From positions 1 to 64,000 of the forward strand of contig NZ_QXFM01000140.1 in the NCBI RefSeq assembly GCF_003584015.1: a DNA stretch of 64,000 nucleotides, in the 5' to 3' direction. The DNA is from Aurantiacibacter xanthus (lineage in GTDB: Bacteria; Pseudomonadota; Alphaproteobacteria; Sphingomonadales; Sphingomonadaceae). The number at the start of each line of letters is the position of its first letter. Position 1 is the first letter of the stretch. The notes beneath the pieces are model-generated. The model made no database searches. It was not told where the DNA came from and worked only from the letters and a program-made list of their open reading frames with translations. The translations under genes were made by a program, and so were the position numbers. Below are positions 43,501 to 56,206 of the stretch, in pieces.

Positions 43501-44649
43501 TTATTGCTCGTCGTCCTCGCGGTGGCGCTCGCCCTCGGGCCGTTCGAGCGCGCTCAGAACCCCGCGCAGGGTGCGCACTTCGAGGTGATTCCAGCCCGGC
43601 CGTGTGAGTACGCCGCGCAAGGTGCGGCGGGTGGCCTCGGCGCGGCTTTCAGGCCAGAAATAGCGGCGCGGTTGGAGCAGTTTTTCGAGATGGCCGATCA
43701 GGCCCTCCAGCTCGTCCTGCGGGGCAGGGGGGAGCAGTTCCTCCACCGTGGGCATGGTGAGATCGGCGTGCTTGGACAGCTCGTAAACCACCAGCATCAC
43801 CGCCTGCGCGAGGTTGAGCGAGCCGAACTCGGGATTGATCGGCGCGGTGATGATCGTGCGGGCGAGGGCGACATCGCTCGTCTCCAGCCCAGAAGCCTCG
43901 CGCCCGAACAGCACCGCCGAGCGGCCCTCGGCGCGCACCATTTCCGCCGCCGCACCCTCGGGCGTGACCACCGGCTTGGTGACACCGCGCTTGCGCACCG
44001 TGGTGGCATAGACATGGGCGCAGTCGGCGACGGCCTCGGCGGTGGTGTCGTAGACCTTGGCCTGTTCAAGAATGATGTCTGCGCCCGAAGCAGCGGGGCC
44101 TGCCGAGGGATTGGGCCAGCCATCGCGCGGGGCGACGAGCCGCATCTCGGTCAGCCCGAAATTGAGCATCGCGCGCGCGGCCTTGCCGATGTTCTCGCCC
44201 AGCTGCGGGCGGACGAGGACGATGACGGGTTGCTCGGTCCTTCGAGACGGGTGCTCAGCCTGCGGCTTCGTACCCTCCTCAGGACGAACGGAGGCAGGAA
44301 TAGAGTTCCGTTCGTCCTGAGGAGCCGAAGACGAAGTCTGAGGCGTCTCGAAGGACCCGCCCCGTTCGAAGGAACCGCGCCGCCGCGCCAATCGCTCGAT
44401 TGCCGCCCAATCCCCCCGGATCAGCGCTTCCTTCTTGGCGCGCGACCAGCCCTTGATCGTGCTTTCCGCTTCAAGCGCCTCGATGCGGGTCGGAAACTCC
44501 GCGCTCCACACCAGGTCGACCGGCCGCCGCTCGTGCGTGTAACCGCCAAGCTCGCCCGACTGGTGCTGCGCCAGCCTCAGCTCAAGATCGTCGGTATGTC
44601 CGGCATAATAGCTGCCATCCGAGCAGCGCAGGATATAGGCCCGGAACAC
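43501..44649 (-). CDS. Fusion of GIY-YIG nuclease domain to TrmJ-type RNA methyltransferase
   Basis: One frame with two domains. Residues 1-90 are a GIY-YIG (URI-type) nuclease: AYILRCSDGSYYAGHTDDL, then EAESTIKGWSRAKKEAL with the metal-binding glutamate. Residues about 139-382 are a SPOUT RNA methyltransferase of the TrmJ/TrmH group (VLVRPQLGENIGKAARAMLNF, VLFGREASGLE, INPEFGSLNLAQAVMLV). The linker, residues about 98-138, is encoded entirely by a palindromic repeat (R2). I see no ATG, GTG or TTG codon that could start the methyltransferase alone, so it appears to be made only as a fusion. I start at the GTG one base after the nrdR stop; an ATG at 44703 is an alternative. Confidence 0.85.
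   Translation of the reverse strand: MFRAYILRCSDGSYYAGHTDDLELRLAQHQSGELGGYTHERRPVDLVWSAEFPTRIEALEAESTIKGWSRAKKEALIRGDWAAIERLARRRGSFERGGSFETPQTSSSAPQDERNSIPASVRPEEGTKPQAEHPSRRTEQPVIVLVRPQLGENIGKAARAMLNFGLTEMRLVAPRDGWPNPSAGPAASGADIILEQAKVYDTTAEAVADCAHVYATTVRKRGVTKPVVTPEGAAAEMVRAEGRSAVLFGREASGLETSDVALARTIITAPINPEFGSLNLAQAVMLVVYELSKHADLTMPTVEELLPPAPQDELEGLIGHLEKLLQPRRYFWPESRAEATRRTLRGVLTRPGWNHLEVRTLRGVLSALERPEGERHREDDEQ
44237..44356. repeat. R2 palindromic element forming the linker of the GIY-YIG/TrmJ fusion
   Basis: Two arms, 44237-44291 and 44308-44356, are complementary over a 13-bp outer stem (GTCCTTCGAGACG) and a 17-bp inner stem (CTCCTCAGGACGAACGG). The arms meet at CGAACGG and CCGTTCGT, the same head sequence as R1. 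It is about 120 bp and has no stop in the coding frame. Confidence 0.85.
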
Positions 44650-44650
44650 T

Positions 44651-45130
44651 TCAGGACCTGCCCCTCGGCTTCTCGGCGGCCGCATCCTGCACGCTGCTCG
44701 CAAACTCCTCGAAATCGCGCGCTTCGGAGAAATCTCGGTAGACGCTCGCGAAACGGATATAGGCGACCGAATCGAGCTGCTTCAGCCCCTCCATCACCAT
44801 CTCGCCGATGCGCGACGAGGCGACCTCGCTCTCACCCGAGGTCTCCACCTGCCGCTGGATGCCTGACACGAGCTGAGCGATCCGCTCCGGCTCGACGCTG
44901 CGCTTGCGGCAGGCGAGGGTGACCGACTGTTCCAGCTTGGTACGGTCGAACGGTTGGCGCCGGTCGCCCGACTTCACCACCGTCACCTCGCGCAGTTGCA
45001 CGCGCTCGAAGGTGGTGAACCGCGCGCCGCAGCTTTCGCACTGGCGGCGGCGGCGGATCGCCGAGTTGTCCTCGGTCGGGCGCGAGTCCTTTACCTGGCT
45101 GTTATCGTGGGCGCAGAACGGACAACGCAT
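44651..45130 (-). CDS. nrdR: Transcriptional repressor NrdR
   Basis: 159 residues. The N-terminal zinc ribbon has [18 protein letters not shown] and [13 protein letters not shown]; the ATP-cone domain follows. NrdR represses ribonucleotide reductase genes in response to (d)ATP. One base separates its stop from the next gene's GTG. Confidence 0.96.
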
Positions 45131-45145
45131 GGATTGGCGGCCCCG

Positions 45146-46459
45146 TTACCGGCCCGGATAGACCGGGAAGGCCGCGCACATTTCGCTGACTTCACGCTGC
45201 ACCCGCTCTTCGATCTGCGCGTCGCCTTCCTCGCCGTTGCGGCTCATACCATGGACCACATCCGCGATCAGCGAGCCGATCTTGCGGAACTCGGCCGGGC
45301 CGAACCCGCGCGTGGTGCCGGCAGGCGCGCCGAGGCGAATGCCGCTGGTCACGAAGGGCGAGCGGGTGTCGAACGGGATGCCGTTCTTGTTGCAGGTGAG
45401 GAACGCGCGATCGAGGCCCTTTTCCGCCGCCTTGCCAGTGACATCGGCGGGAGTGAGGTCGACCAGCATCAGGTGGTTGTCGGTGCCGCCCGAAACGACG
45501 CGCAGGCCGTTCTCTTCAAGACTCGCGGCCAGCGCCCTGGCGTTTTCGACCACGGAGGCGGCATAGGTCTTGAACTCGGGCCGCAGCGCCTCGCCAAAAG
45601 CCACGGCCTTGCCCGCGATCACATGCATCAACGGGCCGCCCTGCAGGCCAGGGAACACCGCCATGTTGAGCGGCTTGGTCAGTTCCTCGTCGTTCCACAG
45701 GATGATGCCCGAACGCGGGCCGCGCATCGATTTGTGCGTGGTCGAGGTGACGATATGGGCGTGCGGGAACGGGCTGGGGTGCATCCCGCCCGCCACGAGG
45801 CCGGAGAAGTGGCTCATGTCGGCCAGCAGATAGGCGCCCACCTCGTCCGCGATCTTGCGGAACTCGGCGAAGTCCCACAGGCGCGAATAGGCGGTGCCGC
45901 CCGAGACGATCAGCTTCGGCTTGTGCTTGTGCGCCAGCTCGCGAACCTGATCCATGTCGAGCAGTTCGTCATCGCGGCGCACGCCATAGGCGACCGCGTT
46001 GAACCACTTGCCGCTCATGTTGACGGGCGAACCGTGGGTGAGGTGCCCGCCGCTGGAGAGATCGAGTCCGAGGAAGGTGTCGCCCGGATTGAGCAGGGCA
46101 AGGAACACCGCCTGGTTCATCTGACTGCCTGAATTGGGCTGCACGTTGGCGAAGTTGCACCCGAACAGCTGCTTGGCGCGCTCGATGGCGAGGTTCTCCA
46201 CCTCGTCGGCATATTCGCAGCCGCCGTAATAGCGCTTGCCCGGATAGCCCTCGGCATACTTGTTGGTGAAGATCGAGCCGGTCGCTTCGAGCACCGCGGG
46301 GCTGGCGATGTTCTCGCTCGCGATCAGTTCGATCCGGTCGCGCTGGCGGCCCAGCTCGCGGCGGATCGTGCCGAACACCGCAGGATCGGCCTGTTCGAGG
46401 CTTTCGCTCCAGAAACGGTTGAGGGCTGCGGTAGGGCTGGGGGCTGCAATAGTGGACAT
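45146..46459 (-). CDS. glyA: Serine hydroxymethyltransferase
   Basis: 437 residues. [19 protein letters not shown], the PLP-lysine motif [15 protein letters not shown] and [16 protein letters not shown] are diagnostic. It makes glycine and methylene-THF from serine. The start [17 protein letters not shown] is one base after the rpiB stop (TGATATG). Confidence 0.96.
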
Positions 46460-46460
46460 A

Positions 46461-55605: not shown

Positions 55606-55632
55606 GCGATCACCTGACCACCTCCCAAGACT

Positions 55633-55743
55633 CCCTTCCCCTCGGGGAAGGGCCGGGGATGGGGGTTTCCACGTTGATATTGCAGCGCCACACTTCGAAC
55701 CTCGCACACCCATCCCCCAACCCCTTCCCTTCAGGGAAGGGGA
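55633..55743. repeat. R3 inverted palindrome doublet, left of the DUF559 gene
   Basis: Two hairpins, 55633-55652 (9-bp stem CCCTTCCCC/GGGGAAGGG) and 55722-55743 (9-bp stem CCCCTTCCC/GGGAAGGGG), lie in inverted orientation, with GGGATGGGGG and CCATCCCCCA between them. The second hairpin contains the stop codon of the DUF559 gene. Confidence 0.85.
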
Positions 55744-56093
55744 GTCCGGTTGCGCGCGAGGGCGATTTCGTCCGCGATCACTTGCAGCACGCCTTGGGTG
55801 TTGGCGAGGATATCGTGGTTCCAGAAGCGCAGCACGCGGTAGCCGTACGCCGCGATGATGCGCGTTCGGTTCGTATCGGCGTCGCTGGCGCTGTGCTGCC
55901 CGCCGTCGCACTCGATGGCGAGGCGCAGCGAGCGGCAGGCGAAGTCGGCGATGAAGTCGCCGACCGGGAACTGGCGAGTGAACTTCGCGCCGCAGAACTG
56001 GCTCGCGCGCAGGTGCGACCACAGGCGCTGTTCGGCTTCGGTCGGGTTGTTGCGAAGATCGCGCGCAAGGTTGGTCAGACGCTTTTTGGCCAT
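55731..56093 (-). CDS. DUF559 (Vsr-like) endonuclease
   Basis: 120 residues, the DUF559/very-short-patch-repair-like PD-(D/E)XK family: NPTEAEQRLWSHLR, GDFIADFACRSLRLAIECDGGQH and GYRVLRFWNHDILAN. It lies antisense in the carA-carB operon between two R3 doublets. The TGA stop is within the R3 hairpin. An upstream ATG would start inside the other R3 doublet, so I use MAKKRLTNLARDL. Family members are predicted nucleases of unknown role, often near palindromic repeats. Confidence 0.88.
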   Translation of the reverse strand: MAKKRLTNLARDLRNNPTEAEQRLWSHLRASQFCGAKFTRQFPVGDFIADFACRSLRLAIECDGGQHSASDADTNRTRIIAAYGYRVLRFWNHDILANTQGVLQVIADEIALARNRTPLP

Positions 56094-56103
56094 GCTCGCA
56101 CAC

Positions 56104-56206
56104 CCATCCCCAACCCCTTCCCTCAAGGGAAGGGGCTAAACGTAACCGCAGCCGTATCGCGACGCAAACTCCCCTCCCCGTGGGGAGGGGTTGGGGGTGG
56201 GGGTAC
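56104..56206. repeat. R3 inverted palindrome doublet, right of the DUF559 gene
   Basis: Hairpins at 56114-56135 (CCCCTTCCC/GGGAAGGGG) and 56171-56190 (CCCCTCCCC/GGGGAGGGG) are in inverted orientation, with CCCATCCCCAA to the left and TTGGGGGTGGGGG to the right. The right end directly touches the signal-peptide coding sequence of the next gene. Confidence 0.85.

Follow-up and report, generated by a model that had tools for sequence, protein, structure and literature searches.

Does a small nuclease gene that lies between copies of a short palindrome belong to that palindrome, or is it only a neighbor? This question is raised by a 64,000-nucleotide stretch of the Aurantiacibacter xanthus genome (contig NZ_QXFM01000140.1; hereafter the window), in which one DUF559 gene and two GIY-YIG genes each occur with a repeat of their own. 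A sequence-only reading of the window had described these three pairs, with repeat R2 in the first GIY-YIG gene, R1 around the second and R3 on both sides of DUF559, and had suggested that the enzymes may recognize and spread their palindromes. All three pairings are confirmed at their positions, and R3 does bracket DUF559, with two palindromes downstream of the gene and two upstream. The pairs form two unrelated nuclease-repeat systems, R1/R2 with GIY-YIG and R3 with DUF559, which are neighbors here by chance. The association of DUF559 with its repeat is very strong. Its locus in the window has the following features:

55731..56126, minus strand: DUF559 gene (YcjD-like, PD-(D/E)XK / Vsr-like fold; Pfam PF04480, E 4.2e-36)
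55632..55653, plus strand: R3 copy 1, pyrimidine/purine palindrome, tail GGGGATGGGGG toward the gene
55721..55742, minus strand: R3 copy 2, palindrome covering the DUF559 stop codon, tail away from the gene
56114..56135, minus strand: R3 copy 3, palindrome 5′ of DUF559, tail toward the gene (TTGGGGATGGG in gene orientation)
56171..56203 (palindrome 56171-56190), plus strand: R3 copy 4, hairpin CCCCTCCCC-GT-GGGGAGGGG, tail TTGGGGGTGGGGG away from the gene
55606..56205, no strand: additional DNA (DUF559 with palindromes on each side), compared with the relative G161 at the boundary between carA and the following gene; limits approximate

Palindromes on both sides of DUF559

The DUF559 product scores 123.6 bits against the PF04480 profile, for which the curated cut-off is 20.6. 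R3 is built of a pyrimidine arm, a short loop, a purine arm and a G-rich third-strand tail, an arrangement that fits the motif known as box C, PIT or intrastrand-triplex motif. The 4.38-Mb draft genome of the window contains 4 DUF559 matches, 10 GIY-YIG matches and 48 places with the R3 palindrome, compared with 2 for the control pattern (up to 2 mismatches). The exact R3 pattern is confined to the two copies adjoining DUF559, and nearly all other R3-type copies, including the outer window copy at 55632, are a close variant, CCCTTCCCC-GGGGAAGGG.

DUF559 occurs in 129 of 149 genomes of the family, from which 40 loci were sampled with flanks of up to 8 kb. A pyrimidine/purine palindrome lies within 250 bp of the gene on both sides at 29 of these loci, on one side at 11 and on neither side at 0, compared with 11 (both sides) and 328 (any side) of 9835 control placements. 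Palindrome density is 7-9.5 per kb within 100 bp of DUF559 and at most 0.12 per kb past 2 kb. When the flanks of the gene are compared with each other, their longest exact match exceeds that of every control placement in the same locus at 21 of 40 loci, some of these matches being non-palindromic. With 32 loci added, the counts become 55 of 72 on both sides, 16 on one and 1 on none (truncated loci L032 and L033 excluded). A broader set comprises the best 80 of at least 575 confirmed places retrieved with one conserved peptide pattern, all in named genomes from alpha-, beta-, gamma- and delta-proteobacterial groups, Dadabacteria, Marinimicrobia and others. Among its 75 loci with full flanks (five cut loci excluded), palindromes stand on both sides at 64, on one at 10 and on none at 1; the corresponding controls give 3 (both sides) and 412 (any side) of 11197. 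Since L111 and L057 are apparently one place, the two samples overlap slightly. Other open frames used as anchors have palindromes on both sides in 2/372 and 2/344 cases (any side, 29 and 40). Because the loci are top scorers or matches to one peptide pattern, the claim is limited to YcjD-like stand-alone proteins. The sequence-only reading had named in advance the result that would speak against it, a lack of palindrome enrichment beside the nucleases; enrichment is far above controls for DUF559 and, as described below, for GIY-YIG.

Eleven further DUF559 loci were read by eye, excluding L252, where the domain lies within a giant protein. Hairpins are found on both sides in three Deinococcus loci, the plasmids of PCC 7002 and ABRG5-3, and Sinorhizobium pSymB; in the two cyanobacterial plasmids they are C/G runs with A/T centers. 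A fourth Deinococcus locus has a clear hairpin upstream and a less regular one downstream, and Neisseria gonorrhoeae has motif-like repeats on both sides at greater distance. Hairpins are one-sided at E. coli ycjD and at the Azospirillum and Synechocystis plasmid loci.

The two flanking copies are mostly inverted: among 80 equal-length pairs the inverted orientation fits better in 66 and the direct one in 9, with 5 ties, and the consensus of both copies places the G-rich tail on the gene-proximal side. The tail mirrors the purine arm in the way expected of the third strand in a triplex: 8 or more of the 9 positions fit in 166 of the 271 ends, compared with a mean of 91 and a maximum of 111 when tails are swapped between loci (kinship of loci ignored). 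The upstream R3 end in the window follows the triplex rule at 9/9 positions. Palindrome type is likewise shared across the gene and along its phylogeny. With types defined by the analyst as coarse classes, the same type stands on both sides at 90 of 121 loci (shuffled mean 34, maximum 54), and the types require 20 changes on the DUF559 protein tree, compared with a shuffled mean of 49 and a minimum of 44 (114 rows).

R3-type ends also recur elsewhere in the genome. Of the 45 copies outside the window, 20 were sampled, and 19 of these lie in dimers of 76-109 bp, 17 of the 19 with G-tails inward at both ends. Because dimers and DUF559 loci have matching ends, the locus looks like a dimer whose spacer contains a gene. 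The dimers in turn look non-autonomous because they have the same kind of ends and lack the gene, comparable to the repetitive extragenic palindromic (REP) doublets called REPINs in relation to the genes of REP-associated tyrosine transposases (RAYTs).

The hairpins lie close to the conserved DUF559 core (median spacing 46 bp before and 32 bp after), as might be expected if they were simply terminators of the nuclease gene or sites of its autoregulation. Such an origin is highly improbable. Hairpins stand upstream as well as downstream, bear a G-rich tail with no T run, occur as dimers elsewhere and seldom flank other open frames on both sides, and their number depends on the presence of DUF559 across genomes. 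For the E. coli motif, the accessible text of Holder et al. (2015; PMC4666352) cites earlier work reporting no promoter or terminator activity.

Repeat number, putative empty sites and possible movement

If DUF559 maintains the motif, the two should vary together, and the sequence-only reading had expected repeat number to depend on the nuclease. Across the 149 genomes, palindrome count and DUF559 number are correlated (Spearman 0.67; reversed control pattern 0.17). A strong DUF559 (E ≤1e-29) is present in 78 genomes, for which the median palindrome count is 50.5 (control pattern 4); it is 6 in 51 genomes with weaker DUF559 only (control 2) and 4.5 in 20 without DUF559 (control 3). The 1e-29 cut-off was picked after the list was seen, and the strong-DUF559 contrast is stable at six thresholds. 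Within genera, 19 of 22 contrasts run in the expected direction (p 1.8e-4; two contrasts share one genome), and the 46 genus pairs differing in DUF559 number divide 34 vs 10. Dependence of repeat number on the nuclease is thus clear for DUF559 and weaker for GIY-YIG, and the further expectation that repeat type tracks nuclease clade holds for DUF559 hairpin types on the protein tree as well as for GIY-YIG loop types by sub-clade.

The likeness of the locus to a gene-containing dimer could also arise if DUF559 were a homing endonuclease gene that invades pre-existing motif dimers and settles in the spacer it cuts, and its predicted fold is that of the homing endonuclease I-Bth0305I. This origin is unlikely, because the motif pattern matches only 3-6 times in seven strong-DUF559 genomes, a palindrome still stands on at least one side of DUF559 in the five of those seven that were sampled, and only 3 of 20 DUF559-free genomes hold 15 or more motifs.

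Another enzyme, such as a Y1/RAYT transposase, might instead move the motifs; DUF559 would then be a passenger, or would act in repair and so limit the damage from folded repeats. Y1 transposases occur in 26 of the 149 genomes, and genomes with both Y1 and strong DUF559 have a median of 165 palindromes (18 genomes) vs 39.5 in those with strong DUF559 alone (60), so that another factor may contribute. A Caulobacter DUF559 protein, VsrA, has moreover been interpreted as a Vsr-like mismatch-repair enzyme that is harmful without a methylase (PMC12907096, in the part available). The DUF559 effect nevertheless persists where Y1 is lacking (39.5 vs 6 palindromes in 63 other genomes, p 9e-11), and Y1 makes no difference among genomes that lack a strong DUF559 (5 in 8 with Y1 vs 6 in 63). 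As the sequence-only reading had supposed from the window, no RAYT partner was found here: the Y1_Tnp search gives 0 matches in the draft genome and was positive in 5 of 14 control genomes, and on this result a RAYT as partner in this genome was rejected. A foreign mover with DUF559 as passenger or repair enzyme is accordingly quite improbable.

E. coli offers a comparison within one species. Its K-12 ycjD is a DUF559 gene beside box C-like repeats (the name box C being that of PMC4666352). It is present in 3365 of 5426 complete genomes. In a sample of 60 genomes spread evenly down the ranking, with one 0.79-Mb fragment dropped, the median number of motif places is 23 in 37 genomes with ycjD vs 11.5 in 22 without it (p 4e-8, lineage uncorrected; the ycjD or sapF place is part of every count). 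A clean empty site was sought in E. coli; all 3 opened strains lacking ycjD (L242-L244) have an efflux operon after sapF, which is a replacement.

Whole units are present or absent among relatives of A. xanthus. The DUF559 unit stands at the carA junction in the window, G183 and G168, and G183 and G168 are the only ones among 20 genus relatives compared that have DUF559 after carA. In G161, with the same neighbors, carA overlaps the next gene, and palindrome and unit are absent. G172 has another DUF559 with palindromes in the dnaG-yqeY gap. With regard to target-site duplication, two junctions were aligned by eye to diverged relatives, and their limits are approximate. In Deinococcus, an annotated hpa gene cluster has DUF559 at a different junction in each of three species; where one species has DUF559, the two genes overlap by 4 bp in another (orthology by annotation only). 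In Azospirillum, no strain-level presence/absence was seen among 7 records spanning the region, all of which also span the DUF559 gene.

Two side observations concern these sites. A 402-amino-acid open frame at 55602-56810 on the plus strand spans the palindromes and, in antisense, DUF559, reaching from the carA stop into the following gene; it is open from the first palindrome onward in the relatives L087 and L088 as well. In Deinococcus psychrotolerans, a DUF559 unit (L246, 974-1327) separates paaD from paaZ. It has a terminal inverted repeat of 56 bp that is almost perfect, and its G-tails point outward, opposite to the usual form in Proteobacteria.

The model of the window DUF559 protein (pLDDT 88.8, pTM 0.83) has predicted structural matches to 3hrl, I-Bth0305I (3r3p) and, weakly, Vsr (1cw0, E 0.67), and a profile search agrees on 3hrl and I-Bth0305I. 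Residues D49, E60, D62 and H66 are invariant across 45 DUF559 sequences. A role in anti-phage defense was considered and set aside, as PADLOC returned only weak partial matches to the ends of very large proteins.

The gene is bracketed by the motif, its ends are inverted, palindrome type agrees with protein clade, gene and repeat are co-distributed, and whole units are present or absent as such. The DUF559 locus is probably the gene-bearing, autonomous form of the box C/PIT/triplex repeats, and the scattered dimers would be its non-autonomous derivatives. An autonomous unit would consist of two motif copies, mostly inverted, with the DUF559 gene between them. DUF559, a small enzyme resembling Vsr and homing endonucleases, may recognize the motif, likeliest as a folded single strand (hairpin or triplex) during replication, and would nick it or the adjacent DNA. 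Once cut, the element could be copied or moved through repair or capture, which would also keep its copies alike. Recognition, nicking and this route of spread are inferred.

Several observations weigh against an autonomous DUF559 element. As to the ends, the inner downstream R3 copy in the window has its tail outward and a triplex fit of 6/9, the triplex rule holds at fewer than 8 of 9 positions in 105 of 271 ends, and Deinococcus G-tails face outward. A divergent DUF559 gene elsewhere in this A. xanthus genome, L014, lacks such a palindrome, and at E. coli ycjD the motif-like repeats are confined to a single side. The empty site in G161 could be a deletion, that genome being 84% complete. 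As to numbers, genomes with weaker DUF559 only (51) hardly differ from those with none (p 0.63), 3 of the 20 family genomes without DUF559 carry 19-41 palindromes, and the surplus that accompanies Y1 in strong-DUF559 genomes is noted above. The ycjD contrast in E. coli ignores lineage, and box C-like sequence occurs in 5376 of 5426 E. coli genomes; because this far exceeds the number with ycjD, motif copies appear to outlive the gene.

GIY-YIG genes and their REPs

The second system in the window lies in part beside the first and comprises two GIY-YIG genes with the related repeats R1 and R2:

53362..53790, minus strand: GIY-YIG #2, sub-clade I, likely ATG start 53715 (PF01541, E 3.2e-17)
53378..53405, plus strand: R1 REP copy encoding the C-terminal tail of GIY-YIG #2
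53743..53770, minus strand: R1 REP copy 5′ of GIY-YIG #2
53794..53818, plus strand: R1 REP copy with variant stem, on the outer upstream side of GIY-YIG #2
53365..53835, no strand: extra DNA (R1, GIY-YIG #2, R1) absent from the gap in G168 and G161; limits approximate
43501..44703, minus strand: GIY-YIG #1, in-frame fusion to a SpoU/TrmJ methyltransferase (GIY-YIG, E 3.5e-16; SpoU/TrmJ, E 1.8e-21)
44236..44291, minus strand: R2 REP copy in the GIY-YIG/TrmJ linker
44308..44357, plus strand: R2 REP copy in the GIY-YIG/TrmJ linker

The head CCGTTCGT is common to R1 and R2, as the sequence-only reading had stated; a variable stem and an inner core follow, the core being GAGC-N2/3-GTCGA in R1 and most relatives. 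Both repeats belong to a single REP-like family, which is tied to one clade of GIY-YIG genes. That reading had also placed a repeat inside the coding sequence in every case. This stands for the R2 linker, the R1 C-terminal tail and the R3 stop codon; the 5′ R1 copies are noncoding if translation starts at ATG 53715, and R2 lies only on the 3′ side of GIY-YIG #1. The in-frame GIY-YIG/TrmJ fusion is also seen in seven family loci (L196, L201, L204, L206, L207, L209 and L211), the linkers of such fusions being apparently REP-coded peptide, and GIY-YIG is fused to a JAB/M67-type peptidase in L002, L210 and L216.

Throughout the genome, the R1 core has 45 matches vs 0 for the reversed control pattern, mostly as inverted pairs spaced by ~30-45 bp, and the R2 head has 66 vs 3 (up to 1 mismatch each). 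Two more R1 inverted pairs of REPIN-like form lie in the window at 24962-25011 and 36956-37004, remote from the nuclease genes. A REP core stands within 300 bp of the GIY-YIG gene on both sides at 25 of 32 loci, on one side at 5 and on neither at 2, compared with 0/384 (both sides) and 38/384 (any side) for control placements; the 32 loci include four from the window's genome and exclude the cut locus L198. These counts rest on a loop widened to 2-3 nt after the misses of a 3-nt version had been seen, that first pattern giving 14 both, 5 one and 14 none of 33 loci (controls, 24/396 on any side). GIY-YIG #1, which has the divergent repeat form R2, is one of the two loci without a core. Loop length differs by GIY-YIG sub-clade, the nearer having mostly 3-nt and the farther mostly 2-nt loops. 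In the 149 genomes, the median excess of GAGCNNNGTCGA over control is 92 in 18 genomes with a clade member at E ≤1e-35, 44 in 31 with only other strong members and 31 in 100 without. Because GAGCNNNGTCGA is noisy, its control pattern matching many times in every genome, this co-distribution is weak evidence.

The Ssn family comprises GIY-YIG site-specific single-strand nucleases tied to repeated palindromic targets and is found in Neisseria. With this family as precedent, the GIY-YIG half of the present findings is probably already known in kind: in both, a GIY-YIG enzyme is linked to its own repeated palindrome. DUF559 differs in being of another fold. The chances are about equal that the GIY-YIG genes are themselves Ssn members, which would act on single-stranded DNA by limiting or directing its uptake or repair and would not spread repeats. 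The flanking of 25 of 32 loci by cores and the agreement of loop type with sub-clade are consistent with this role. A different behavior is suggested by the R1-GIY-R1 unit in the window, which occupies the dnaG-yqeY gap and resembles a moved element. The gap measures only ~45 bp in the relatives G168 and G161, G183 has other DNA there, and GIY-YIG #2 is present at its site in 0 of 20 genus relatives. Many cores are also present in genomes lacking a strong clade member, 11 of 100 having a GAGCNNNGTCGA excess of at least 80.

R1 and R2 were also compared with CGTC-tagged REPs and do not belong to them: their head is CCGTTC and their loop GAGC..GTCGA, so that, as read from the letters, tag and stem mismatch the definition. 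Palindromes that may resemble CGTC-type REPs adjoin both L009, a GIY-YIG gene of another clade, and the divergent DUF559 gene L014. In the available text of PMC3733652, CGTC-tagged REPs have a CGTC (or TGTC/CCTC) tag and an 8-9 bp stem beginning with A/T pairs, and no dedicated transposase is reported for them.

Relation to known systems

Among the matches listed in literature searches, judged by title and abstract opening and with subscription literature mostly outside them, no paper links DUF559 to a repeat family. The terms DUF559, ycjD and nuclease each have 0 occurrences in the accessible text of PMC4666352, and nuclease, transposase and RAYT have 0 in a 2025 REP survey (PMC12306157). The link would connect a repeat that is widespread in bacteria, and whose origin is unexplained, with DUF559, a common protein of unknown function, and would give that enzyme a testable role. 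A dedicated nuclease gene would make the old repeat puzzle amenable to the bench in E. coli K-12 (ycjD).

The closest relation is to box C, PIT and the triplex motif, which share the hairpin of pyrimidine and purine arms with a purine third strand, paired inverted copies and variation between strains (PMC4666352, accessible text). Loop types are T-T-A and C-C-G in E. coli and TT and CT/CC in the R3 type. According to the same portion of that paper, the motif occurs in more than 260 genomes with type A paired with type B, the E. coli motif forms a triplex in vitro, and neither transposase or integrase remnants nor a mobility gene lie nearby. The present loci differ in that a nuclease gene is tied to the motif. 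I-Bth0305I and, weakly, Vsr have a related catalytic fold, and 'Vsr-like' DUF559 proteins may alternatively be viewed as repeat-linked nucleases. Classical insertion sequences are distinct, as a Pfam scan detected no transposase domain in the three gene products.

The arrangement is reminiscent of REPtrons (RAYT with REP/REPIN), in which an enzyme gene lies between short palindromes, dimers are scattered through the genome and several repeat families occur per genome (PMC3733652, in the part available). Inverted dispersed dimers of this kind are formed here by R1 pairs and R3-type dimers. The enzyme is a PD-(D/E)XK (DUF559) or GIY-YIG nuclease and no Y1 HUH transposase. It is an even question whether DUF559 with triplex-motif ends constitutes a new minimal class of mobile element, driven by a hydrolytic nuclease in place of a transposase, with box C/PIT/triplex motifs across bacteria as its non-autonomous descendants and GIY-YIG with its REPs following the same life style independently. 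R1/R2 with GIY-YIG is a parallel, unrelated nuclease-repeat pair, and together with RAYTs these systems suggest that at least three unrelated folds (HUH, GIY-YIG and PD-(D/E)XK) have taken up short palindromic repeats.

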